36,232 nucleotides of DNA. Source: an uncultured Flavobacteriales bacterium (lineage in GTDB: Bacteria > Bacteroidota > Bacteroidia > Flavobacteriales_D > Sanyastnellaceae). The stretch lies in assembly GCA_937881575.1 (NCBI GenBank), contig CALGEI010000137.1:1-36232 (forward strand). The letters are read 5' to 3'. The notes under the pieces were generated by a model, which ran no database searches, was not told the origin of the DNA, and saw only the letters and a program-made list of their open reading frames with translations. The translations under genes and the position numbers were made by a program. Positions 10,853 to 35,552 of this stretch are shown piece after piece (position 1 is the stretch's first letter; every line of letters begins with the position of its first letter).

Positions 10853-11776
10853 ATGAGTGTATCTGAAATTCACGCGTTACTGGCTTTGTTGGACGATCCA
10901 GACGATACGGTCTACAACCATGTTCGAGATCAATTAGTTTCGAAAGGCAAGGAGATATTGCCGTTCGTACATGCGGAGGTATCGAAGGCGCCAGATTGTG
11001 ATGTGTTCATGGACCGTTTGGAGCAATTGCGAGGAGAGTTGCAGCGAACGGATATCAAATCCGCGGTGAATGAGTGGAAATCGAGCAATGTGCCATCTCT
11101 TTGGGAAGGGGTTTTGTTGGTTCAGAAAGCGACCTATCCGGAATTGGATTTAGATGCAGCTAGACTGGATTTTGAGCAACTCAAACGCGATGTTTGGCTT
11201 GAACTGAATGATGAGTTGACGGCGTTGGAGCAAGTGCGAATTCTGAATCACATGTTTTTCAGCATGCGCGGAATCGAAAGCGTAAGAAGAATGCCACATG
11301 TGGCATTCGATGCATTGCCATCCTATGTTTTGAAAGAGAAGAAAGGCAATCCGCTTGGAATGGGCATTCTGTATCTGTGTCTCACTGAGGCATTGAATTT
11401 GCCCGTGCGCGGAGTGAATTTGCCAAATCACTTCATCTTGGCTTACTGCGATGATGCGCACGTTCAAGAACGTTTAGCTTCATCGATGCAAGCGGGAATT
11501 TTGTTTTACATCAATCCGTTTAGCAGTGGGGCGGTTATCGGACCGGCAGATGTCGCAGAATTCTTGAGCCACCTTGACCAAAATGAGACGGCTCGACAAT
11601 GGCGACCTTGCAGCTCCGTTGAGATCATTCTTAGACTCGTCCAAAATGTCGCTTTCTCGCTTCGTGAATCGGGTGAATTGAACCGTGAAATGGAGTTGAT
11701 CAACTCATTTGCCCCGCTGTTATCCTCATTTGAGGATTCGGAGGAGCGTTCGAACGATCACCCTCCCATCCGATAA
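10853..11776 (+). CDS. SirB1/transglutaminase-like domain protein
   Basis: The 307-residue protein has the transglutaminase-like (SirB1, Tranglut_core2) fold in its middle: LDLDAARLDFEQLKRD (101-116), then the block RILNHMFFSMRGI, YVLKEKKGNPLGMGILYL (a conserved stretch of this family), and LNLPVRGVNLPNHFILAY, in which the NLPxHF motif supplies the histidine. The N-terminal 90 residues are helical (HEAT-like, starting VSEIHALLALLDDPDDTVYNHV). The classical Cys-His-Asp transglutaminase triad is not clearly present: I see no cysteine at the usual place, so it may not be an active protease or crosslinker. Its 3' end overlaps the convergent sugar transferase by 51 bases. The biological role of this family is not well established. 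Confidence 0.85.
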   Translation: MSVSEIHALLALLDDPDDTVYNHVRDQLVSKGKEILPFVHAEVSKAPDCDVFMDRLEQLRGELQRTDIKSAVNEWKSSNVPSLWEGVLLVQKATYPELDLDAARLDFEQLKRDVWLELNDELTALEQVRILNHMFFSMRGIESVRRMPHVAFDALPSYVLKEKKGNPLGMGILYLCLTEALNLPVRGVNLPNHFILAYCDDAHVQERLASSMQAGILFYINPFSSGAVIGPADVAEFLSHLDQNETARQWRPCSSVEIILRLVQNVAFSLRESGELNREMELINSFAPLLSSFEDSEERSNDHPPIR

Positions 11777-12310
11777 AAAAGTGGCTTTTCGGATATAGGC
11801 CAACTGCATGTTGACCTTTTCAGGAAGGATGACTTCCCTGTAAAATTTTTCGGGGTCCTCGACTGATTCAAGCCGCGCGCCCTCATCAAAGGCTTGAATG
11901 CTCGCGGGGTCCGTCAGTCCGGGTCTTACAGCCAAGACGTCACGTTGTTCGGTGGTGTAGAGTGCGACATATTTCGGCACTTCGGGACGCGGACCAACAA
12001 AACTCATGTCGCCCATGACAATGTTCCACAACTGAGGCAGTTCATCCATTTTTGATTTTCGAATCCATTGTCCGACTCGGGTAATCCGAGGGTCATTGGT
12101 CCCAAGTGTAATGGCAGGTCCAGACAAATCTGAACGCATGGATCGAAATTTAAGGAGCTGGAATGAGACTCCTTCCTTGCCCACACGCTCCTGTCTGTAA
12201 AGGCCGCTTCCGGGTGATTCGATTCGGATGAGAATGCCCAAAATCAAAAGGAGAGGACTCAGTATGATGCACGCCACCAAAGCGATTCCGAAATCGAAAA
12301 GACGCTTCAT
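11726..12310 (-). CDS. Undecaprenyl-phosphate sugar phosphotransferase (WcaJ/PglC type)
   Basis: I start the protein at the ATG at 12310 (194 residues, MKRLFDFGIALVACIILSPL). This gives the expected single hydrophobic segment (about residues 5-29) and the standard N-terminus; the open frame upstream adds 18 unrelated residues. The bacterial sugar transferase core follows: YRQERVGKEGVSFQLLKFRSM, KSKMDELPQLWNIVMGDMSFVGPRPE (with the DE and PRP motifs), and RPGLTDPASI. These enzymes transfer a sugar-1-phosphate to undecaprenyl phosphate at the membrane and start O-antigen, capsule or glycoprotein glycan synthesis. The ATG overlaps the stop of the upstream aminotransferase by four bases, so the two are translated together. 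Confidence 0.93.
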   Translation of the reverse strand: MKRLFDFGIALVACIILSPLLLILGILIRIESPGSGLYRQERVGKEGVSFQLLKFRSMRSDLSGPAITLGTNDPRITRVGQWIRKSKMDELPQLWNIVMGDMSFVGPRPEVPKYVALYTTEQRDVLAVRPGLTDPASIQAFDEGARLESVEDPEKFYREVILPEKVNMQLAYIRKATFLSDGRVIVRTLLRILK

Positions 12311-13548
12311 GAATGTTTTGTCGAAAGTGATTGGACATGATGTTGTAGCCGCTCTACAATCCAATCAACGTCCTCATCGGCGAGTTGAAGATGAATGGGC
12401 AAACTCAATTGCTCATTGAAACAAGCCGCACTTTCAGGGTAATGCACCATGTCTTCGCCGCGATTGCGATGCAGCGAGAGAAGAGGGAGGGGGACGAAAT
12501 GCACATTGGTGGCAATGCCATCTTTTTTGAGTCGTTGCATCACCTCATCGCGTTGATTGGCTTGAAATCCCTTGATGCGGATGGAGTAAAGATGATAAGC
12601 GGACTCTCGGAAAGTGTCCTCGAGAATGGGGAGTTGGCACCAAGAAGAGGGTGTCAGGGCTTGCGTGTAACGAGTGGCGATGGCTTTTCTTCGCGCTAAA
12701 TGTTCAGGGTATTTCTTGAGCTGGCACCGACCAATGGCCGCCTGAATGTCTGTCATATTGCACTTATAACCAGCTTCGACCACATCATATTGCCATGTTC
12801 CGGATTGTGTTTTTTCCAGAGCGCTTTTACTTTGACCGTGCAGGGACATCGCCCGGAACCAGGCCGTTGTTTTTTCTAAGTCCAACTCCGTAGGCAATGA
12901 AAAAGAGAGCGCCCCTCCTTCAGCGGTCGTTAAGTTTTTGACCGCATGAAAACTGAATCCGGTAATGTCCGCTTGTGTCCCAACCGGTGTGTTCCTCCAT
13001 TGCGCTCCAAATGAATGGGCCGCATCAGACAGGAATAAAGGCCTTCCCAAAGCCATCTGAATGGGGTTGGTTGGCTTGAAGTTGGCGCGAACGGCATTTG
13101 AATTGAGCCAATTAGAAATCCCCTCATAGTCCACGGGCCAACCTCCTAAGTCGACGGGCATGACCGCTTTAGTTTCAGGTGTCCAAGCGGCTTTTAAGTT
13201 TTCTAAAGACACCACACGTTCGAGCGGATCAATGTCGACCAAGACAGGGCGTGCTCCACAATGCAAGACGATGTTGGCGGTAGCGGCATACGTCATGGCT
13301 GGAATAAGGACGTCATCTCCCGGACCGATGCCGAACCAGCGCAGCGCCAATTCGCAGGCTGTCGTCCAGCTTGAAAAACAGAGAACGCGTGAAGACACGA
13401 GATACGCTTCCAACTCGGATTCAAAAGCCTTCAATTCAGGGCCTGATGTGATCCATCCTGAGCGTAAGACACGTTCCACTGCAGCGATGCAGTCGTCATC
13501 AATGGAGGGGGGGGCGAACCCAATGTTGCGCGCAGAGGAATCCAACAT
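12307..13548 (-). CDS. DegT/DnrJ/EryC1/StrS family sugar aminotransferase
   Basis: This PLP-dependent enzyme has 413 residues. Near the start SGWITSGPELKAFE, then DVLIPAMTYAATANIV with the PLP-binding fold, and LSDAAHSFGA with Asp175 binding the pyridine nitrogen. The Schiff-base lysine is Lys204 in TGFSFHAVKNLTTAEGGAL, and YKCNMTDIQAAIGRCQL is another family block. Members of the family add an amino group to keto-sugar nucleotides, for example in bacillosamine, perosamine or QuiNAc synthesis. The following gene, a sugar phosphotransferase, overlaps by four bases, so the amino sugar may be the first sugar of a lipid-linked glycan. Residues 147-170 form an insertion that lengthens the loop before Asp175. 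The product sugar cannot be decided. The dehydratase and acetyltransferase steps are not in the window. Confidence 0.93.
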   Translation of the reverse strand: MLDSSARNIGFAPPSIDDDCIAAVERVLRSGWITSGPELKAFESELEAYLVSSRVLCFSSWTTACELALRWFGIGPGDDVLIPAMTYAATANIVLHCGARPVLVDIDPLERVVSLENLKAAWTPETKAVMPVDLGGWPVDYEGISNWLNSNAVRANFKPTNPIQMALGRPLFLSDAAHSFGAQWRNTPVGTQADITGFSFHAVKNLTTAEGGALSFSLPTELDLEKTTAWFRAMSLHGQSKSALEKTQSGTWQYDVVEAGYKCNMTDIQAAIGRCQLKKYPEHLARRKAIATRYTQALTPSSWCQLPILEDTFRESAYHLYSIRIKGFQANQRDEVMQRLKKDGIATNVHFVPLPLLSLHRNRGEDMVHYPESAACFNEQLSLPIHLQLADEDVDWIVERLQHHVQSLSTKHS

Positions 13549-13721
13549 GGGTGCAATTTACACTGACTCTATGGGGATCAGGATTTATTTTACGATTCTC
13601 AAATGGTCTGTTGATAATGGCTGTTGCTTTTTTGATGAAACGGGTGTCTTATTTCTGTGTGAATCCCAACGGTGATCAAATCAAATTGACGCATCTGAAT
13701 GCATCGGGCATTTTTTTTGTG

Positions 13722-13729
13722 TATTTTTG
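13722..13729 (+). promoter_or_regulatory. -7 box (TATTTTTG) before the Crp/Fnr gene
   Basis: TATTTTTG fits TAnnTTTG exactly and lies six bases before the ATG at 13736. I find no good TTTG 18-22 bases upstream. The 187-base gap between the two divergent genes has no other feature I can support; a TGATCA at 13674-13679 is only a short palindrome. Confidence 0.4.
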
Positions 13730-13735
13730 GTTGTT

Positions 13736-14389
13736 ATGGAACATGGTGTGCAGGGTCAGTTGAAAAGTGTTTTACCGAAGAGCATCCATGCTTCTATTGA
13801 AACGCTGCTTTCGGCAGGAGAAAAGAAGTCCTTTCGAGATAAGGGTATCTTGGTATATCCGGGAGATCCAATTGTCAGCTTGACCATTGTTTTAAGTGGT
13901 CGAATTTCAATTCACCGCGTATCAACTGATGGAAAAAGGCAGTTGATGTATTTTCTGAAACCAGGAGACCTGTGTGGAGTAAGCGTGAACAGTGCTCCTC
14001 AAAAGGAGGTCTCCAAGATTCTTGCAGTGGCTGATACGGACTCAGAAATCTTTTGTATGCCAGGTGGGCTTTTACGGGAATTGATGTTGTCTCATCCGGG
14101 CTGGTTCGAGTTCGCTAACTACGCTGTTGCGAAGAACATGGAAGACTCCATGAAATGTTTGGACTCGGTTACATTTACACCACTAGCAGAGCGATTGGAA
14201 AATTATTTAAATGACTACGCCTCCTTGTTGGGGTCTCATGAGATTGTCAAGTCACATCTTCAGATTGCCGAAGATTTAAATTCCAGTCGAGAAGTTGTTA
14301 GTCGGCTTTTAAAGAAAATGGAGATCAATGAAACCGTGGAATTGAGGCACGGAAGAATCTTAATGAAAGATGCCCCCGTTTTGGGATAG
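13736..14389 (+). CDS. Crp/Fnr family transcription regulator
   Basis: The ATG at 13736 gives 217 residues; an earlier TTG adds only three. A cyclic-nucleotide-binding-type beta-barrel spans about residues 18-115 (KGILVYPGDPIVSLTIVLSGRISIHRV, then LMYFLKPGDLCGVSVN). After the dimerisation helix (about 120-145) comes a winged helix-turn-helix, with SHLQIAEDLNSSREVVSRLLKKMEINETVEL as the recognition region, the pattern of Crp/Fnr members. The ligand site lacks the full cAMP motif (no RxSA in the usual place), so the effector is probably not cAMP. The N-terminal Cys cluster of Fnr Fe-S sensors is also absent. The rhodanese gene begins 24 bases after the stop and may be its target or partner. Confidence 0.9.
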   Translation: MEHGVQGQLKSVLPKSIHASIETLLSAGEKKSFRDKGILVYPGDPIVSLTIVLSGRISIHRVSTDGKRQLMYFLKPGDLCGVSVNSAPQKEVSKILAVADTDSEIFCMPGGLLRELMLSHPGWFEFANYAVAKNMEDSMKCLDSVTFTPLAERLENYLNDYASLLGSHEIVKSHLQIAEDLNSSREVVSRLLKKMEINETVELRHGRILMKDAPVLG

Positions 14390-17162: not shown

Positions 17163-18893
17163 ATGAAAACCCGATTGAATTGCGCCTCACTTCAGAAAGG
17201 CACCGTGCTCGTAATGGGATGGATGGGCTTGGTGTTGACATCGTGGTGTCAAACGGCAGTCCTGGAGCCAACAAACGCTGAGCTTCCGATGGTCACACTC
17301 GAGGCCCCCGCCTTGGATCAACTGTGGGAAAGAGCATGGTGGCATGAAGAAAACACCGGCAAGACGATGCAAGGGCATGTTGTGGATGCGGATGTTGACT
17401 TCTTTCAGGTGGCGTATCATGAGATTTCAAACGAACTCGAATCGTGGCAGCTGCTCATCAACGTTGCCGACGCACCTGCACTGTGTGTTTATTTTGAGTC
17501 GTTTCATTTGCCGGTCGGTGGTCTACTCACGCTGGAATCGCCCGAGGGCGTTTTTGAAGTGCCTTACATTGAAGGGCCTGCAGATTACCAGGAAAACAAC
17601 GATCACGGATTGTATGTGACTGCTGAAGTTCCAGGAGAAATGGGACTGCTGCGTTACACGCAACCCGTTGGAACTGTTGGGACACCGACGTTCAAAATCA
17701 ATGGCGTGGGTGTTCTGTTCCGCTACCTCTGGTTGGATGGTGAATACGACTTGCTTTTTGAAAATAACCGAGGTTCCGACCCGTGCGAAGTGAATGTCAA
17801 CTGTCCGGAAGGCGATGATTGGCTTTGTCAACGGGACGCAGTCGTACGCTTGCGGATTACCCAAGATGGAGGACAATTTCTGTGTTCAGGAGCCATGGTC
17901 AACAATACGGCGCAAGATTGCAAGCAGTTGTTGTTGAGCTCATTCCACTGTGCGGATGCTGTAGAGGAGGATGAGTGGGCTTTTGTGCAGGTGCGATACA
18001 ATTATGAGTTTTTTGAATGCGATGGCACGTCGAGTTTCAATTCGCACACCCGAACCGGTGTCACGTTTTTGACGAGTTCGAATGATGCCGTGGGCCCGAA
18101 TATCAACGGTTCGGACTTTCTGCTGTTGGAAGTGGAGGACAATGTTTTTGACAGCTGGACTCCTTTTTTTGCAGGATGGGATGTTTCGGGAGAGAATCCG
18201 GAGGAAGGCGTTGGAATCCATCATCCAGCGGGAGATCGCAAGAAAATATCGACCTACAGCAATTCCCCCTCGAATAGCAGCGTGTATCACCCCGGGGCGC
18301 ATTGGCGTGTGTATTGGGTCGAAACAGAAACGAATCACGGTGTGACCGAAGGCGGGTCATCAGGCTCGCCATTGTTTGATCAAAACCGTCGCATCGTGGG
18401 CACTTTGACGGGAGGAGCTTCATTTTGTACGAACCCAACGGCCCCAGATTATTATGGTAAGATGAGTTACCACTGGGATGGCAACAATCCCATACCAGAG
18501 GCTGAGAAGCTTTTCAATTTCTTGGATCCATTGGGCACAGGTGCAGAGGTCTTAGATGGGAGTTACCGGACAGAGTTCGAGATGCCATGCGCAGAACAAT
18601 CGGTTTGTGGAACGGTCGATATTGAAGAGGAGTGGCTGCGCAAAAATGAGTGGTCTCTGATTCCGAATCCTGCCAATTCCATGGTCACGCTGCAATGGTC
18701 TGGAGATCTAAAGGCGAGCGAGGTGAGACTGTATGATCAAATGGGCCGGCCGGTAGAGGTTGTTTCTCTGTCGGGCTTGCAAAGTCCACAATTCTCAGTC
18801 GCCCATTTAGCGTCGGGATTGTACTATGTGACCTTACAGACGGAAGGAGGGGCCACGGCTACGCGGAAGTTGTTAGTGGCCAGTGCTCAGTGA
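17163..18893 (+). CDS. Secreted trypsin-like serine protease (lysyl endopeptidase-like) with type A T9SS sorting domain
   Basis: The 576-residue protein has a signal peptide (residues 1-30) and a pro-region to about 225. The chymotrypsin-fold protease domain has catalytic His262 in LSSFHCADAV (instead of the classical TAAHC), Asp318 in NGSDFLLLEV and Ser400 in GVTEGGSSGSPLFDQNRRIVG. The arrangement and the SSGSPLFDQ block resemble Achromobacter/Lysobacter lysyl endopeptidase. The C-terminus (about 490-576) is a type A sorting domain, with LIPNPANSMVTLQW, VRLYDQMGRPV and a closing GLYYVTLQTEGG. It would be exported by the Sec pathway and then by T9SS, probably to digest external protein. Its stop overlaps the end of mutS2 by seven bases. 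Cleavage specificity is inferred, not shown. Confidence 0.9.
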   Translation: MKTRLNCASLQKGTVLVMGWMGLVLTSWCQTAVLEPTNAELPMVTLEAPALDQLWERAWWHEENTGKTMQGHVVDADVDFFQVAYHEISNELESWQLLINVADAPALCVYFESFHLPVGGLLTLESPEGVFEVPYIEGPADYQENNDHGLYVTAEVPGEMGLLRYTQPVGTVGTPTFKINGVGVLFRYLWLDGEYDLLFENNRGSDPCEVNVNCPEGDDWLCQRDAVVRLRITQDGGQFLCSGAMVNNTAQDCKQLLLSSFHCADAVEEDEWAFVQVRYNYEFFECDGTSSFNSHTRTGVTFLTSSNDAVGPNINGSDFLLLEVEDNVFDSWTPFFAGWDVSGENPEEGVGIHHPAGDRKKISTYSNSPSNSSVYHPGAHWRVYWVETETNHGVTEGGSSGSPLFDQNRRIVGTLTGGASFCTNPTAPDYYGKMSYHWDGNNPIPEAEKLFNFLDPLGTGAEVLDGSYRTEFEMPCAEQSVCGTVDIEEEWLRKNEWSLIPNPANSMVTLQWSGDLKASEVRLYDQMGRPVEVVSLSGLQSPQFSVAHLASGLYYVTLQTEGGATATRKLLVASAQ

Positions 18894-27479: not shown

Positions 27480-29003
27480 TCAGTGCATGAAGTAGGCGGC
27501 GGCTTCGAGCGACCAAGTCTCTCGCAACACCGTGGCTTCATCCAAACCAATCAAGGTGCCTTTGTAATCTCCAATGATCCGGGCTTGAGTGAATCCATTC
27601 TCATGCATCTCCGCCAGCATTTGTTCTGCCACATTGATGGAGGAAGCGGTGGGTGTTACCAAGCACAATTCGCTGTTTTTGTTGAACTTTTGAACCACGT
27701 CCCCTGTGATCATAAAAGGGGTGACGGCATCCATGTCCAAGTCGCGAATGGCTTCCGCCAGTTGCACCCTAAAAGTGGGCTTCAAGGCTTCGTGGATGGC
27801 GGCGGCGACGCTGTTCGTTGCGCCTTCCATGTTGTCAGCAGTTTCCTTCACCGCTTTGACAGGCTTGACGGCTTTCACTGGTACCGTTGTCTTGCTGGAA
27901 CCAAAGGTTTTCAGCAATCGCAATTCAGCTGGAGTGCGTCCTCTGGTATCGACTGGAGTGACCATGTTTTTGCTTTCAGGAGACTCAATGCGTTGGAACA
28001 CCTCCTGGAACGTCGTTGGGTTGGATGGCTGCGGAGCCAAGGCCGCAGCCCATTGCTCTTCACTCAGGGCAACGCCAAGCTCGTTGACTCGCCGGTGAGT
28101 TGAGTGAGGTTCAGTGTCTTTGAAATCTGGAATGCCATCTTTGTCAGAGTCCAAAGCACATCCAAACTTGTCGACAGGAGCGCCATCAGCTGTTGCTGGA
28201 CAGTGATCTTTCGAATCATTTACGCCGTCGGCGTCTGCATCATTGCCCAACAGCAACAGCGCTTCCGGAAAGGCTTCGTTTTTGGGTTCAGCATGTGCTT
28301 TGCCCAGTCGGATGCCAATGCCTGCCTGAGCGGTGGTGAGCCAGTCCGTGTGACTGGGTCGCGGATCCAAACTTGCTTCAGTGCCGATAATGCTAGCGAG
28401 CGATGCGGAGGCATACAGACGCTTGGAAATATTCAAATCCAAACCAATCTGCACAGGAAATGCAATGTTCTGATCGGTTGCAGTGCGTGTTTCGAAGGTG
28501 TAATCTCGCATCAACGGATTGGCCTGCAAATCTGCAGAGGGTGCATCTTGTGCCATGTCATAGATGAGGCCGTCATCCCAAATTTGGTATGCATTGCCAT
28601 CGGCATCCAATAAATCAGTGAAATTGGATTGCTTTAGCCATGCGGCTCCAACGCTGATCCAAGGTTGGAGATGTCTTTCCTCGTTGTAAGGCAAATGCAA
28701 GCGAAGGCCTGCTCCTGCCAATTGATAGGTTGACATTTCATCTTTGCGATTTGCCGCGGTGAGTCCGAGTTCTCCCCACTGAGCGAGTGCTTCAGCTGAA
28801 ACAAATGGACGCAGGCTTGTTGAAAGCGCAATTTGAGATGAATAGGTACCCGTGCCGGATATCTGAATGCCGTCTTCCAAATTGGAAGAACCGGTAAAAC
28901 TGGTCGGACCAGTCAATAGTCGAACGCTTGTTTGAGCGATCAAAGACTGCGGCTGAGCACTGAGTGCCGCGGCAGTTAACAAAAGGATGCTTGCAATGCG
29001 CAT
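27480..29003 (-). CDS. Outer-membrane protein with TSP3 calcium repeats and a SPOR-like end
   Basis: The ATG at 29003 gives 507 residues and a signal peptide (MRIASILLLTAAALSAQ, cut near 22). The N-terminal 230 residues alternate strands and turns typical of an outer-membrane beta-barrel (for example IGLDLNISKRLYASASLASIIG). A TSP3 segment, NDADADGVNDSKDHCP then DSDKDGIPDFKD (254-297), binds calcium and links to a Lys-Pro/Val-rich spacer. The end (about 410-480), TFRVQLAEAI then SSINVAEQMLAEMHENGFTQARII, looks like a SPOR-type fold rather than the OmpA peptidoglycan domain. The frame is open to 29060, adding 19 unlikely residues. Function is structural at the outer membrane by inference. Confidence 0.78.
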   Translation of the reverse strand: MRIASILLLTAAALSAQPQSLIAQTSVRLLTGPTSFTGSSNLEDGIQISGTGTYSSQIALSTSLRPFVSAEALAQWGELGLTAANRKDEMSTYQLAGAGLRLHLPYNEERHLQPWISVGAAWLKQSNFTDLLDADGNAYQIWDDGLIYDMAQDAPSADLQANPLMRDYTFETRTATDQNIAFPVQIGLDLNISKRLYASASLASIIGTEASLDPRPSHTDWLTTAQAGIGIRLGKAHAEPKNEAFPEALLLLGNDADADGVNDSKDHCPATADGAPVDKFGCALDSDKDGIPDFKDTEPHSTHRRVNELGVALSEEQWAAALAPQPSNPTTFQEVFQRIESPESKNMVTPVDTRGRTPAELRLLKTFGSSKTTVPVKAVKPVKAVKETADNMEGATNSVAAAIHEALKPTFRVQLAEAIRDLDMDAVTPFMITGDVVQKFNKNSELCLVTPTASSINVAEQMLAEMHENGFTQARIIGDYKGTLIGLDEATVLRETWSLEAAAYFMH

Positions 29004-29107
29004 GGGTCGAATGAGCTTAATGAGACTTTTCACATCGCCCTTTACGGAACTGCTAACCAAAAAGTTTCGCCAAACTCAAAGTTTTAATCGACCAGCTCGA
29101 ATTTAGT

Positions 29108-30238
29108 CTAGGTTTTCGCGATGAGGTCCGCGACTTGATGACCGCATTGCATGCCCATGGCCACGCCCATTCCACCGAGACGAACGGCGACATGAATGCC
29201 TGGCTTCGCTTCTTGGATAATGGGCAGTCGTTCTTGACCTATGCCGAGTACGCCCGTCCATCGGTGTTCGATTTTGACGTTTCTTGAATTGGGCCAGATG
29301 GCATTCAGCCGATTCACCAATTGGGATTCCAATTCAGCTGAATCATCCAATCCCCAATGGCGTCCCCCTCCAATGAGCAGACGGTTGCCTATCGATCTCG
29401 CATACACATAACCGGCATCGATGTGCACCGTCGGTTGAGGGGCGAGGCCATGGATAGGGGCTGTGACCAGCACCATATTGGAAGCAGGATGCACATCCAG
29501 TCCATCCATCAATTCTCCCGCAAAGGCATTGGTGGTCAAGAGCAGCCGATCTGCTTCAAACCAAGAACCGCCTTCGGGGGATTCAGACAATCGGATTTGG
29601 GGAAGAGGTGCGGCCGGTAACACTCCGGTGACATGGCAACCGTGAACCACATCGATGCCAGCGAGATGGGCCTGATGATGAAGGGCTTGCATCATTTTCC
29701 CCGTATCAATGCCGCCCTCGAGTGGCGAAGCAATGACGTGTTGGATTGCCGTTGAATCCATGCCGTTGAAGGACTGGGCATCGACCAGCTGAAATGTTTT
29801 TGAAGACGAGGTAACGGGAGCAATCCAGGCATTGAGATTGGCAATTTCCTCCACTGTGGGCATCGGTGCATGGGGTTCATGTCCTTTCAAAAACAACTCC
29901 ACACTCCCGGATGCACGGTAAGCGATGGCTTGGTCGCCCAGCCGTTTTCGCAACAACTGCAATCCAGTCCAACGCTGTTGCACCAGGTCAAGTGCCCTTA
30001 CGTCACCCAGAATTAGCCGGTCTTCCCTTAGCTCAGTGGCGCTTCCAAAACACGCAAAACCAGCATTCCGTGTGCTTCCACCGCCCCCAAATGGGTGCCG
30101 TTCGATGACGGTAATCTTCCAAGAGGGATGCAATTCCTTTGCGCGCAAGGCCGCTGAGAGGCCCACAATCCCACCTCCGACAACCACCAAATTGCGCTTC
30201 GTTAACCACTGATTCGACTCCCAATAACTAAATGCCAT
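29108..30238 (-). CDS. FAD-dependent oxidoreductase, DAO (glycine/D-amino acid oxidase) family
   Basis: From the ATG at 30238 the protein has 376 residues (MAFSYWESNQWLTKRNLVVVGGGIVGL). The dinucleotide-binding GGGIVG (21-26), the ITVIERHPFGGGGSTRNAGFACFG block (a GGGxSTRNAG flavin-linked motif), and a C-terminal NRLLIGGGRHWG and RLGGMGVAMGM complete the DAO fold. Such enzymes oxidise amine groups of amino acids or related compounds. The substrate is unknown. A frame to 30292 adds 18 residues that lie over the start of the divergent gene, so I reject them. Only 21 bases separate it from that gene. Confidence 0.9.
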   Translation of the reverse strand: MAFSYWESNQWLTKRNLVVVGGGIVGLSAALRAKELHPSWKITVIERHPFGGGGSTRNAGFACFGSATELREDRLILGDVRALDLVQQRWTGLQLLRKRLGDQAIAYRASGSVELFLKGHEPHAPMPTVEEIANLNAWIAPVTSSSKTFQLVDAQSFNGMDSTAIQHVIASPLEGGIDTGKMMQALHHQAHLAGIDVVHGCHVTGVLPAAPLPQIRLSESPEGGSWFEADRLLLTTNAFAGELMDGLDVHPASNMVLVTAPIHGLAPQPTVHIDAGYVYARSIGNRLLIGGGRHWGLDDSAELESQLVNRLNAIWPNSRNVKIEHRWTGVLGIGQERLPIIQEAKPGIHVAVRLGGMGVAMGMQCGHQVADLIAKT

Positions 30239-30259
30239 ATTTTTACGTTCATTAGAAGC

Positions 30260-33200
30260 ATGGATTTGCCCATGAATACCCTCAAGAGCCAAAATAGATT
30301 GAATTTTTCAGTAACGCCTTCAGCAAGCCATTGGTTCCTCAGGAATGTTTCTTTCTTGGGACTGCTCTGCTTGATTTTGATGGGGCTTTTTCAATCTTCA
30401 GCCGCCGCTCAAGAAGACCAGTTCTTGGTTTTTGGTTCGGTCAAAATGGACGACACCAACAAACGGTTGTTGGGCGTCAAGGTGGTGGTGTTCCAAGATG
30501 GAAGCCCCTACGATGAGTTGTTCACTGATGCGAAGGGCGATTATGATTTTGAATTGCCGTTGCGGCATGACTATACCTTCAGTTTTGAGTTGGAAGGACA
30601 CAGCAACAAGCGGATTGAAGTGGATGCATCGGGCATTCCAGAGACCACTTTGGGCAATCGCAACATGGACTTGGACATGACCTTGTTTCCCTTACCGCCG
30701 GGATTCGATGAGCGTATTTTTGAAAGTCCCTACGGAAGAGGAGCGTATGATGACGGCAAAAACACGGTCGTATTTGATAGCAACTTCACCGTCCGTATGC
30801 GGAATAAGGTGCAGGCGGAATTTGCCCGATTGGAGCGGTTGGAAGGGGAGTTGGAGCAAATGCAAGAAAATTTCGAGGAATTCGTCAAGAAGGGTGATCA
30901 ATCGGTGGGCCGACAAGAATGGCAGCAAGCCGTGGATTTTTATGATTCGGCGTTGGCCCTCTTTCCCGATGAAGCCAATGCAATTTCGAAGCGTGCGTCG
31001 GCGCAGGTGAAGCTGGATGAATTCTTGGCTTCGGGCGCCTCAGAAGCGGCTTTTTTGTCGAAGTTAGATGAAGGGCGAGTCGCATTGGAAGCAGACCGAT
31101 TGGATGAGGCGATCGAGGTGTTTGAAGCGGCGGCTTCAATGCAACCGGACTCGCCAGAGCCTGCGGCGGGGTTGCGGGATGTAGAATCGCGTCGAGAGGA
31201 GTTGGAAAAAGAGGGAGAGTACAACGAGATGATAGCCGAGGCGGACAACTTGTTTGATCGCGAGCAATATGAAAAAGCGATTAAAACGTACAATGACGCG
31301 AGCGACCTCAAGCCATCTGAACGGTATCCGAGGGATCGCCAACAAGAGGCTCAGACGCGATTGGATGATTTGGCATCGGAATCGGCTTCCATCGTCGAAC
31401 GAACCATTGCATATGAAGCGCTGCTCGACGAGGCCAACGATTTATATCGAGGCGATGACTATGCTGCGGCATTGGTGAAATATGAGGAAGCATCTCGCTT
31501 GTTGCCCGCAGAGCGGCTTCCGCAGCAGCGGGCAGAGGAATGCCGTGAGCGCATTGCTGAAGCGGAAGGAGAAGAAGCGGAGCGCATTCGAAGAGAAACG
31601 GAACGAGCGGAACGCGAAGCCTCAAGCGCGCAACTGCGAGAATTGCGTTTGCAATATGATGCCATCAACGATGAAGCCGATATCTTGTTTCGGAATGATG
31701 ACTATGCAGCCGCCATTGTCAAATATGGCGAGGCATTGGAGGTTTTGCCGGATGAACGTTACCCTTTGCAACGTTTAGCTGAAGCACAGCGCAGGTTGGA
31801 TGAAGCGTCTGCCAAGGCTGAAGCGAACTCCTCATCCAAGGACCGCGACCAGTCGCAAGCAGATGATCGCGCCGAGCGAGCGAGCGAGCAGGAGGCAGAA
31901 GAAGAGCGGCAAGCCCGTGATGATCGAAGGGCCGAAGAAGCGGCTCAAGAAGCAGCGGATGATGAGGCCGCATCAGCTTCAGAGGAAGCAGCTCGGGAGG
32001 CCGATAGTCTTTTAGAAGCCGAGGAACGTCAGGCTCGAGATGACAGAAGGGCCGAGGAAGCAGCGGACGAAGCAGCGCAGGACGAGGCGGAACGAAAAGA
32101 ACGGGAAACTCGCAATGCAGAGGCCGATGCCGCATCGGATGAGGCAGCATTGTTGGATGTAGCGTTCAATCGCCTCATCGAAGAAGCAGATGGAGCGTAC
32201 AATCGCTCCGATTGGGATGCAGCGAATGCAGCCTATGCGGAAGCCTTGGAGTTGAAGCCCGAGGATCGATATGCGAGCGGCCGAATGGCAAGAATTGCGA
32301 AGAAACAGGACGCCTCGGAGACCGCAGAGGAAGCGGATGACAATGCCGCTAGACAAGCGGCCCTGGAAGATGAAAAAGCCGATGCCGCTCTTGAGGCGGA
32401 GCGGGCTGCAGCTTCGGCTGCACAGAGCACAGAGGCTGAGCGTGAACGCCGACTGGATGCTGAACGTGAGCGAGCGGATCAGGTCATTGCAGAGCGCAAA
32501 AGACAGGAAGAGAAAGCGCGAAGTCGAGCGCAGCAGCTGGCATCCGTGATCAACAATCCTGAAAGTGAGGAAGTAGAACAGTACTACAAGGAAGCTCTAA
32601 AAAGTGAAGAGCGTTCTCGGTACCTGGAGATCGAGAAAAAGAAGCGGTCAGCGGCGGAGTTGGAGCAACAGGCCGCCCGATCTGCTCAGGTTCGCAGGGA
32701 GGATGATCTGTCGGACAACCAAGATTTGGAGAGGAATCGAAGCGCCATGGTCCAAAACGCTGGGATGGCTCAGGATCGTCGTGTCGACGCGTTGGCCGAT
32801 AAAAAGAATGATTACAGCAAGGCCTCGGGTCAATCAGCGCGCACAGGAGTTGAGCAGCAAACGCGAGGAAAACAGCGTGTAGAAGATCAAAAATCGAAAA
32901 GCGCCCGGCTCCAGCGGAATCGATCACGCGATTATGCCTTGGTCGTCCCCGAATTGGAACGGAAGAAGCGGTCTTGGAGCAATCTTTTCAAGGGTGTCAA
33001 TCGGGCTGCTGCTGATCGGCGTTCCATCAATACGGAAAATGCAGAGGCCAAAACGCGTCAATACCGAACGGTCGGAAATGGGGCATCGGTCCGCGCTCAG
33101 GAGCGGCTGATGGAAATCCGAAAAAAAGAACAACGGAGCAACCGGCGTCTGTCTAAACGAAAAACCGAAGCGGATCGTCGGGCCTACGACGCGCGCTTGA

Positions 33201-33463
33201 AAGAGCAGGATCGCATCACAACGGCAACTGACGACAAAGACAAGTATGTATTGTCCGAAGATGACCAGGAGGTCCTCATGGGCATCCACGAGGAATCCTA
33301 TGACATTCCCAACGGCTTGGTCATCGAGCGAACCGTTCGGAGAGGAAATCAAGTGGTACGTTACCGAAAAGTCGTCACGAAGACGGGAGTCTATTACTTC
33401 AAAGGGGACCGCAGCATCACGGTCAATACGTGGAAGCGGGAAACTTCGATTGTGTTGGACTGA
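30260..33463 (+). CDS. Large exported TPR and coiled-coil protein
   Basis: The 1067-residue protein has a signal peptide (hydrophobic 30-48, ending AAAQED) after a long N-terminus; the start could also be the ATG at 30272. Residues 55-145 look like a carboxypeptidase-regulatory-like beta-sandwich (FGSVKMDDTNKRLLGVKVVVF, then TDAKGDYDFELPL). TPR-like helix pairs follow (four recognisable copies, 325-680), with Ala/Glu/Arg-rich heptad-like stretches (430-630, 685-890) that suggest long helical rods. The C-terminal 55 residues (NGLVIERTVRRGNQVVRYRKVVTKTGVYYF) resemble a terminal module I associate with Bacteroidota envelope proteins of this type. It would extend through the periplasm or along the outer membrane. 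The TonB-like gene starts inside its stop. Confidence 0.75.
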   Translation: MDLPMNTLKSQNRLNFSVTPSASHWFLRNVSFLGLLCLILMGLFQSSAAAQEDQFLVFGSVKMDDTNKRLLGVKVVVFQDGSPYDELFTDAKGDYDFELPLRHDYTFSFELEGHSNKRIEVDASGIPETTLGNRNMDLDMTLFPLPPGFDERIFESPYGRGAYDDGKNTVVFDSNFTVRMRNKVQAEFARLERLEGELEQMQENFEEFVKKGDQSVGRQEWQQAVDFYDSALALFPDEANAISKRASAQVKLDEFLASGASEAAFLSKLDEGRVALEADRLDEAIEVFEAAASMQPDSPEPAAGLRDVESRREELEKEGEYNEMIAEADNLFDREQYEKAIKTYNDASDLKPSERYPRDRQQEAQTRLDDLASESASIVERTIAYEALLDEANDLYRGDDYAAALVKYEEASRLLPAERLPQQRAEECRERIAEAEGEEAERIRRETERAEREASSAQLRELRLQYDAINDEADILFRNDDYAAAIVKYGEALEVLPDERYPLQRLAEAQRRLDEASAKAEANSSSKDRDQSQADDRAERASEQEAEEERQARDDRRAEEAAQEAADDEAASASEEAAREADSLLEAEERQARDDRRAEEAADEAAQDEAERKERETRNAEADAASDEAALLDVAFNRLIEEADGAYNRSDWDAANAAYAEALELKPEDRYASGRMARIAKKQDASETAEEADDNAARQAALEDEKADAALEAERAAASAAQSTEAERERRLDAERERADQVIAERKRQEEKARSRAQQLASVINNPESEEVEQYYKEALKSEERSRYLEIEKKKRSAAELEQQAARSAQVRREDDLSDNQDLERNRSAMVQNAGMAQDRRVDALADKKNDYSKASGQSARTGVEQQTRGKQRVEDQKSKSARLQRNRSRDYALVVPELERKKRSWSNLFKGVNRAAADRRSINTENAEAKTRQYRTVGNGASVRAQERLMEIRKKEQRSNRRLSKRKTEADRRAYDARLKEQDRITTATDDKDKYVLSEDDQEVLMGIHEESYDIPNGLVIERTVRRGNQVVRYRKVVTKTGVYYFKGDRSITVNTWKRETSIVLD
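31232..32302 (+). repeat. Four TPR-like modules within the large coiled-coil protein
   Basis: About 46 residues each: 325-370 (AEADNLFDREQYEKAIKTY), 389-434 (DEANDLYRGDDYAAALVKY), 470-515 (DEADILFRNDDYAAAIVKY) and 640-681 (EEADGAYNRSDWDAANAAY). All share the pattern EAD.L....DY..A...Y.EA..L.P.ER, and three end in RYP or RLP. They are protein repeats, not recent DNA duplications. Confidence 0.8.
31901..32140 (+). repeat. Tandem 40-residue repeat in the coiled-coil region
   Basis: The unit EERQARDDRRAEEAA recurs with a 40-residue (120-base) period: residues 548-587 and 588-627. The protein is nearly identical for 15 residues while codons differ (CAAGCCCGT versus CAGGCTCGA), so the duplication is old and maintained by selection for charge pattern. 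Confidence 0.85.
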
Positions 33464-34230
33464 TGCCATCGCCTGACACCAAAGCCCAGCAAAGCAATCG
33501 CTATTGGATGGCCATTGCCCTGACGCTGGGAGTGCATGCTGGGATCTTGTTGGTCTTGTGGATGCAGCCGCTACGCGGAACCGGAGCACAAACAACACAA
33601 TACGTTGAAATCGCTGTGGCTGAATGGCCCGATGTTGAGCCGCTCCAAGAGCACTCTCTTGAATCGATGCTCAGTCAACGGATGGAGGCCCAGGTTGCCA
33701 ACCTCCTTTCTGATGCCACCAAGTCCGTTTCTTCAGCGCGCCGTTCGTCCAGCGCAGCCTTGGATGAAAAGCAGATGGCGGCCGAAGTGGACGCAGATCT
33801 GCGGGCTATGGAACAAGCTGAATTTGAGCGTTTGGGTGCGGAAAAGAAGGACTTTGGTTTGGAGGGTGTGCCTGATGACGGACAACGAGAACAGATCCAG
33901 ACCTATGAAGAATGGGACAGCCGCTATGATGGGCAGGTCACAGTCGCTTTTGATGTGCCGGGTCGCGATGGATTGCATCTGGATGTGCCTGGTTATCGCT
34001 GCCGAGGCGGCGGGGAGGTGGTGGTGAAAATCGAGGTAATGGGGGACGGCAGTGTGCGCGAAGCGCGCGTGATTGCGACGAAATTGTCTCCATCGGATGG
34101 GGCCTCAGAACCGATCCGAATGTGCCTCACAGAACAGGCGTTGCGCAGTGCTCAACGATCATCCTTTCGTGCATCGGTCGATGGCTCCGTTTTGGGCACC
34201 TTGACCTATCGCTTCATTGCTCAACAATAA
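33463..34230 (+). CDS. TonB-like protein with one membrane span
   Basis: I use the ATG at 33463, which shares one base with the TGA of the upstream gene, giving 255 residues. It starts with a short cytoplasmic end, then one hydrophobic segment (about 13-30, IALTLGVHAGILLVLWM). A helical, charged region (about 50-140) spans the periplasm. The C-terminal domain (about 160-255) has GLHLDVPGYRCRGGGEVVVKIEV, GDGSVREARV and the final GTLTYRFIAQQ, which resembles the TonB C-terminal fold found in many Bacteroidota, but without the YP motif of classical TonB. No ExbB or ExbD gene is nearby. The tight coupling to the 1067-residue protein suggests the two work together in the envelope. Confidence 0.8.
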   Translation: MPSPDTKAQQSNRYWMAIALTLGVHAGILLVLWMQPLRGTGAQTTQYVEIAVAEWPDVEPLQEHSLESMLSQRMEAQVANLLSDATKSVSSARRSSSAALDEKQMAAEVDADLRAMEQAEFERLGAEKKDFGLEGVPDDGQREQIQTYEEWDSRYDGQVTVAFDVPGRDGLHLDVPGYRCRGGGEVVVKIEVMGDGSVREARVIATKLSPSDGASEPIRMCLTEQALRSAQRSSFRASVDGSVLGTLTYRFIAQQ

Positions 34231-34307: not shown

Positions 34308-35552
34308 TTGCAATATTCCCCTGAACACCCTTTGCGCCTTGGAATTGTCCGAGAAGGCAAGACCCCTCCCGATCAGCGGGTTCCCTTGACGCCCGAGCAA
34401 TGCGCGACCTTGATTGCGCGCCATCCTGAATTGGAAATCGTCGTCCAACCGAGTCCTGTGCGTCGCATAACCGATGCGGAATATGTGGTTGCAGGACTGC
34501 GTCTTGAGGAGGATTTGAGTTCGTGTGATGTCTTGATTGGAGTCAAAGAGGTGAATGTGGAAGACCTCATTCCTTCCAAGACGTACCTCTTCTTCAGTCA
34601 CACACACAAATTGCAGCCCTACAATGCCCCGCTATTGGCTGGGGTGCTGGAACGAAAAATTCGGTTGATCGACTATGAAATGCTGAAGCGCTCTAGTGGC
34701 AAGCGGATCATCGGATTTGGACGTTGGGCCGGACTGGTCGGTGCTTACAATGGGATACGAGCGTATGGACTTCAAAGCGGTCGCTTCTCATTGCCCAAGG
34801 CCATCGAGTGCCGCGACCTGAAGGAAATGTTGGACCATGCCAAGTCGGCGGATTTACCCGACGATTTTCGCATTGTCTTGACGGGGAGTGGTCGGGTCGG
34901 ACAAGGAGCTTTGGAGGTGCTGAAACACATGAAATTAAGAGGCGTGCACAAGGACGATTTCTTGCGCATGGATTTTCCGGACCCGGTCTATGTGCATTTG
35001 GAGGTGGATGATTACAATGAACGCATCGATGGCCAGCCGTTTGATTATGCGGAGTTTGTCGACGATGCGACGGGATACCAAAGCACCTTCATGCCGTTTG
35101 GACAGCGTGCCGACTTGTTCATTGCCGGACATTTCTGGGCCGATGGATCGCCGTTTTTATTCACTCGAGAAGACATGCGCAACCCGGCCTGGTCGGTCAA
35201 GGTGGTCGCGGACATTTCCTGCGACATTGACGGGCCCGTGGCCTGCACAGTGCGTCCATCGACGATTGCAGACCCGCTGTACGGCTATGACCCTGGAACC
35301 GAATCAGAATGCGCGTTGGATCATCCCGGTGCGATCACGGTGATGGCAGTGGACAACCTGCCATGTGAGTTGCCGCGCGATGCTTCCGAGGGGTTTGGTC
35401 GTGAATTGATGGCACATGTCATCCCGTTGCTGGTTGCCGGGGACGATGATGGCATTTTGCACGCTGCGAGTGAAACGACGCTGACAGGAGAGCTCAATGC
35501 GCCGTTTGCCTACCTCGCGGAATACGCGGAAAAAGGGGGGGAGGAACTCTAA
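34308..35552 (+). CDS. Alanine dehydrogenase / saccharopine dehydrogenase-like NAD(P)-dependent enzyme
   Basis: The 414-residue enzyme (from a TTG at 34308) has the AlaDH/PNT N-terminal pattern: LGIVREGKTPPDQRVPLTPEQC, DVLIGVKEV, TYLFFSHTHKLQ and IDYEMLKRSSGKRIIGFGRWAGLVGAYNG. A nucleotide-binding region RIVLTGSGRVGQGALEVLKHM follows at about 190-210, and VKVVADISCDIDGPVACTVRPSTIADP leads to the C-terminal domain. The layout is nearest to lysine-forming saccharopine dehydrogenases (LYS1-like), so the reaction may be a reductive or oxidative amination; the substrate is not decided. There is no ATG near the start in this frame; the sequence upstream reads like coding but for a TGA at 34275. The tmRNA gene follows after 88 bases. 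Confidence 0.85.
   Translation: MQYSPEHPLRLGIVREGKTPPDQRVPLTPEQCATLIARHPELEIVVQPSPVRRITDAEYVVAGLRLEEDLSSCDVLIGVKEVNVEDLIPSKTYLFFSHTHKLQPYNAPLLAGVLERKIRLIDYEMLKRSSGKRIIGFGRWAGLVGAYNGIRAYGLQSGRFSLPKAIECRDLKEMLDHAKSADLPDDFRIVLTGSGRVGQGALEVLKHMKLRGVHKDDFLRMDFPDPVYVHLEVDDYNERIDGQPFDYAEFVDDATGYQSTFMPFGQRADLFIAGHFWADGSPFLFTREDMRNPAWSVKVVADISCDIDGPVACTVRPSTIADPLYGYDPGTESECALDHPGAITVMAVDNLPCELPRDASEGFGRELMAHVIPLLVAGDDDGILHAASETTLTGELNAPFAYLAEYAEKGGEEL

Follow-up and report, generated by a model that had tools for sequence, protein, structure and literature searches.

What do two overlapping genes, one encoding a very large exported protein and the other a relative of the transducers TonB and TolA, accomplish together in the cell envelope of a Flavobacteriales bacterium? 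The question is raised by a stretch of 36,232 nucleotides (the window) from an uncultured member of the Sanyastnellaceae, which makes up contig C137 of a genome of 2.6 Mb (G000). A 1067-codon open reading frame (ORF), labelled here BIG, runs directly into the gene for a TonB-like protein of 255 residues, labelled TON. As the original prediction had read, the start codon of TON begins within the stop codon of BIG (TGATG). The frame and ends of both ORFs are preserved among orthologues in ~90 genomes, and we therefore take them as real genes rather than chance occurrences. Neither BIG nor TON belongs to a curated full-length Pfam or NCBIfam family, and a search of open-licence papers found none naming them. 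To our knowledge, this phylum has no reported TolA, which makes the TolA-like half of the pair interesting. The explanation that we consider best, and on balance probable, is that TON is a motor-driven transducer, made with BIG and acting on BIG or on its complex.

An operon confined to one clade

The linkage of the two genes was followed in 101 genomes of the window's family, 48 of them good, and the search was extended to 199 genomes of the order and to a class sample of 101 genera. The presence of BIG was scored with a profile of its C-terminal end domain and adjacency by matching the coordinates of the two genes in 88 family genomes. TON was found in 93 of the 101 family genomes, nearly always as a single copy, and singly in all 48 good ones; the BIG end domain was found in 92, again with all 48 good ones and nearly always one copy each. 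The genes are adjacent in 37 of the 88 genomes, all belonging to genera g1, g3, g9 and g14, and within these genera adjacency is complete (37/37 where both genes were found). In the TON tree, the linked genera form one clade (98/96) with the unlinked g10 as its sister. The pair is a lineage-specific operon in which two older loci were joined. The dedicated two-gene system originally proposed thus holds as a tight link in four genera and finds no support in the 51 of 88 genomes where the genes lie apart; independent occurrence in most genomes, named beforehand as speaking against the proposal, is what is seen outside this one clade and not within it.

Full-length relatives of TON occur in families f3, f9, f10, f12, f16 and f20. 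In the genomes checked from f2, f4, f5, f6 and f8, TON was not found and only a paralogue within exbB-exbD-x-folC operons was present; the order-wide tally of 196/199 mixes in this paralogue in several families and so cannot be read as the number of genomes with TON. In Flavobacteriaceae, the TON orthologue lies directly 3' of a gene combining tetratricopeptide repeats (TPRs) with a WG propeller in 71 of the 77 genomes listing both. This upstream gene encodes ~700 residues with YbgF/CpoB-like TPRs and WG repeats (L143 1369-4235, L144, L149, L151, L153), and the same order, WG-TPR gene then TON, recurs in f16 (L159). More than one lineage thus has TON placed behind a TPR envelope gene. The Flavobacteriaceae arrangement is reminiscent of CpoB/TolB-TolA, the make-up of the WG-TPR protein resembling CpoB plus TolB. 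In the window's family, no match to the WG-TPR gene reached comparable strength. In Flavobacteriaceae genus g45 (L167-L169), a TonB-like protein that has the Cys pair but a different N-terminus is encoded between another TonB-like gene and folC; it may represent a TON that was relocated, or a hybrid.

The strongest alternative is an operon of convenience, in which unrelated core envelope genes share their expression and neither bind nor act jointly, TON possibly still being a transducer. We incline only slightly against it. Several observations weigh on its side or against the explanation that we prefer. The genes are unlinked in most genera, their adjacency has a single origin without independent replicate, and since both are core in the family their co-occurrence says nothing on joint function. 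Covariation of branch rates between BIG and TON was no better than in neighbour controls (r 0.15, p 0.41). A general pairing is opposed by f2, f4, f5, f6 and f8, where BIG occurs and the only TonB-like protein of this kind found in the genomes checked was the one linked to exbBD and folC. Likewise, the WG gene occurs without TON behind it in genomes of f2, f4, f5 and f8 and in the Flavobacteriaceae genome G139, and an obligate TON and WG-TPR pairing was rejected on this ground. Finally, the D-box-like segment of TON, described below, is degenerate in many orthologues. Two facts stand against mere convenience: the overlap or near-overlap was retained in 37 of 37 genomes despite divergence of TON down to ~40 % identity, and the Flavobacteriaceae TON likewise follows a TPR envelope gene.

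Genome G057 offered a candidate case of coevolution. Its BIG (L024 5348-8017) shares 29-31 % identity with its genus, against 48-71 % among the others, and evolves ~15 times faster than in sister genomes, whereas flanking genes change far less; even its end domain is only 33-38 % identical to that of its genus. On a fixed tree, the value for TON was 0.84 against 0.28-0.35 and that of the AlaDH neighbour 0.35 against 0.09-0.11. Coevolution of BIG and TON was rejected, since the AlaDH neighbour speeds up alike and covariation was no better than in controls.

A probable transducer of the TonB/TolA superfamily

Its predicted fold and its motifs place TON in the TonB/TolA superfamily, though not among the standard TonBs; that it is coupled to a motor is very probable. 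A TxxxH motif, of the SxxxH type, lies in its single N-terminal span at residues 21-25 of the protein, and 66 of the 69 informative orthologues retain the histidine; among the TonB_C-type proteins of the genome that were examined by eye, only TON carries a span histidine. Two linker helices follow in the predicted model, proline-poor (~3 prolines in ~115 residues), and lead to a well-predicted C-terminal domain. Compared on this model, the domain is nearest to those of TonB proteins (best Z 9.7 with 9ddz, 1.8 Å over 76 residues) and then to those of TolA (Z 7.3 with 1tol, and lower), these matches scoring above the unrelated rows of the fold search. Its two cysteines are present in 70 of 70 orthologues.

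Residues 48-54 resemble the D-box, a motif defined by the order of its hydrophobic and hydrophilic positions (PMC10907165). The full pattern is found there in 23 of 69 orthologues against a mean of 0.9 % elsewhere, and single positions fit in 52-63 of 70. This resemblance was noticed post hoc, and another stretch, in a linker helix, fits the pattern more often (36/70); we take the segment as support for a D-box in TON, not as proof.

The N-terminal span with its histidine and the fold of the C-terminal domain are shared with TonB (PF03544 / TIGR01352), and the D-box-like strand may be as well. TON could be viewed as one more TonB paralogue, of the ordinary kind, by which certain TonB-dependent transporters (TBDTs) are energised, BIG being unrelated to it. 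The nearest folds are those of TonB C-terminal domains, paralogy of TonB is common, and a Flavobacteriaceae orthologue (L143) passes the tonB_Cterm cut-off, and that one only (30.3 vs 27.1 bits). This reading is nevertheless unlikely, since TON lacks the YP motif, with PGYRC in its place, has an invariant Cys pair and a helical, proline-poor linker in place of the proline-rich one of a standard TonB, and remains far below the cut-off of Pfam TonB_C (11.9 vs 24.6 bits) and below that of NCBIfam tonB_Cterm (15.5 vs 27.1 bits). In the loci read, moreover, no TBDT was recognised beside TON, which is one core copy per genome alongside other TonBs. The original description of a protein with one span, a TonB-like end and no YP motif, looking like an inner-to-outer-membrane transducer rather than a standard siderophore TonB, is thus borne out.

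With TolA of the Tol-Pal system, TON shares the helical linker, the span histidine and the fold of the C-terminal domain, and its orthologues in Flavobacteriaceae adjoin TPR and propeller proteins of CpoB/TolB-like make-up. Unlike in Tol-Pal, no tolQ, tolR, tolB or pal was recognised with TON in the family loci read.

The motor genes also lie elsewhere. The loci read showed no recognisable exbB-exbD next to TON, and a whole-genome search found no exbD on the window's contig, as had been predicted; the same genome does contain such genes on two other contigs. Contig C44 carries exbB-exbD-TonB-like-folC, an operon known from Bacteroidota. Its TonB-like protein shares the C-terminal domain of TON, and the two look like paralogues, but the operon copy adjoins its motor, lacks the span histidine in this genome and scores no more than 26.5 bits with the profile of TON. 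Contig C85 (L058, ~11558-14350) carries exbB, two exbD genes and a gene for a small membrane protein. No transducer gene adjoins them, and this orphan motor could serve TON.

A role of TON in type IX secretion (T9SS) or gliding, instead of a Tol- or Ton-like function, is very unlikely: TON lies near porW/sprE in family f3 (L145) and T9SS parts too use TPR and carboxypeptidase-regulatory (CP) modules, but of the two f3 loci read just one has porW/sprE near TON, no T9SS gene was recognised beside TON in the family, and an NCBIfam scan of BIG (E up to 1) returned neither a type A nor a type B sorting domain. A PorW linkage of TON was dropped, being limited to that single locus.

BIG, a probable large envelope protein

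The signal peptide and the Ala/Glu/Arg-rich rod that had been described for BIG were both found (Table 1), the latter with 18/15/12 % of these residues. A CP domain is matched as proposed, below the curated cut-off in the window's protein and at E 1.8e-5 in the orthologue L063. The TPRs exceed their cut-off and number ~6 by eye, not the four previously counted. The protein ends in a domain of ~65 residues, among its best conserved parts in alignments, for which a model with pLDDT >93 over most of its length was predicted (mf212cee1da8b). A fold search with this domain returned no convincing match (SMC heads came first, at Z 5.4), and PDB sequence searches found no relative of TON, of the BIG end domain or of BIG's Flavobacterium-type homologue. 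In its TPR and CP domains BIG resembles PorE, a CpoB-TolB-CP-Pal fusion lipoprotein of the T9SS; unlike PorE, it shows no lipobox, propeller or OmpA domain in the sequence and Pfam scan.

BIG proteins span 593-1148 residues in the window's family. The end domain occurs in 146 of 199 order genomes, where it typically closes ORFs of 1200-2400 residues with the same CP-TPR-rod plan, and a deeper profile matches 43 of the 101 genera of the class sample. In the unlinked genera, BIG retains its own old neighbours (an FAD-dependent protein, an outer-membrane protein (OMP) and the divergent DAO oxidoreductase), mostly with aroQ next downstream. Small TPR proteins of ~250-300 residues with the BIG end domain at their end were also observed (L154, L155, L160; L136, L140); three f20 genomes have one of these genes on the opposite strand, ~4 kb away from TON.

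Table 1. Positions of BIG, TON and adjoining genes in the window
Feature	Position	Strand	Basis or remark
BIG, exported CP-domain/TPR/rod protein	30260..33463	+	1067 codons; start ATG 30260 or in-frame ATG 30272; stop TGA 33461-33463; orthologues
BIG signal peptide	30272..30409	+	Predicted cleavage ...SSAAA/QED, without lipobox Cys; same layout in orthologues
BIG carboxypeptidase-regulatory-like (Ig-type) domain	30431..30634	+	Pfam PF13620 CarboxypepD_reg, E 2.8e-4, below curated cut-off
BIG main TPR-like run	30869..31789	+	TPR_11 1.4e-11, TPR_2 4e-9, over Pfam cut-off; unit limits by eye
BIG further TPR-like unit	~32171-32305	+	By eye
BIG Ala/Glu/Arg-rich rod	31790..33200	+	Length varies between species
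BIG C-terminal end domain, ~65 aa	33251..33460	+	Beta meander and short helix; alignments and predicted model
TGATG, BIG stop overlapping TON start	33461..33465	+	Sequence
TON, TonB/TolA-type transducer	33463..34230	+	255 aa; ATG 33463-33465
TON transmembrane helix	33490..33561	+	Conserved His25 (codon 33535-33537); helix 6-34 in model
TON D-box-like segment VEIAVAE, residues 48-54	33604..33624	+	Column pattern in orthologues
TON C-terminal domain, TonB/TolA fold	33934..34227	+	Invariant Cys180 and Cys221; predicted model
DAO-type FAD oxidoreductase (context)	29108..30292	-	Divergent from BIG in most family and order loci inspected
AlaDH/PNT-like gene (context)	34308..35552	+	Adjoins TON in 26/28 family loci, whether linked to BIG or not

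The DAO gene is itself adjoined by a gene for a protein with an OMP barrel and TSP3 repeats (window 27480-29060, minus strand; also L026 7632-9419 and L063 1314-3452). Relatives of this protein bear SPOR-like repeats (in L026, SPOR E 5.6e-4, just below cut-off), hinting at a link to septal peptidoglycan near the ancestral locus of BIG. Elsewhere in the window (17163-18893, plus strand), the end of a protease-like exported protein reads like a type A sorting domain, and the organism therefore probably has a T9SS.

Proposed mechanism

Transducers of the Ton and Tol type carry the force of a motor to a partner on the outer-membrane side. TON would be such a transducer, anchored in the inner membrane by a span that would dock, with His25, on a proton motor of the ExbBD/TolQR type whose genes lie elsewhere in the genome. 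The D-box-like strand would contact the periplasmic domain of an ExbD-type subunit, the helical linker would cross the periplasm and the C-terminal domain would grip an outer-membrane partner, the Cys pair possibly forming a disulphide. BIG would be a large scaffold, either periplasmic or on the outer-membrane side. One rearrangement in the ancestor of the four genera would have put the TON-AlaDH block directly behind BIG and, because of this placement, the two proteins would now be made together.

BIG may be the partner of TON in this clade because the overlap or near-overlap was kept, because TON lies behind TPR genes in Flavobacteriaceae, and because CP domains are implicated in the interaction of TBDTs with TonB (PMC12204202). 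Most plausibly, so close a coupling was kept because BIG, or a complex containing it, is the target of TON, by analogy with TolA and its partners. Direct contact between the two proteins is a more tentative proposal, and one that we lean against.

Significance for the Bacteroidota envelope

In a survey from 2025, no tol-pal locus turned up in Bacteroidetes; its authors put PorE forward as one tether and regarded other outer-membrane-stabilising systems of these bacteria as yet to be revealed (PMC12204202). TON might be the missing TolA-equivalent of Flavobacteriales, pulling on TPR-bearing envelope partners in replacement of classical Tol-Pal. Hypothetically, these partners would be the WG-propeller TPR protein in Flavobacteriaceae and BIG in the window's clade, and the outer membrane would be held or remodelled. 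We regard this extension as doubtful.

BIG and its relatives constitute an undescribed family of large envelope proteins conserved across an order. TON is a putative transducer, core and single-copy, that bears TolA/TonB hallmarks and, in more than one lineage, follows a TPR envelope gene; as such it offers a concrete candidate that is easy to test. The Bacteroidota are without a recognised Tol-Pal system, and this leaves a gap that TON, as a candidate for stabilising the outer membrane, might address.

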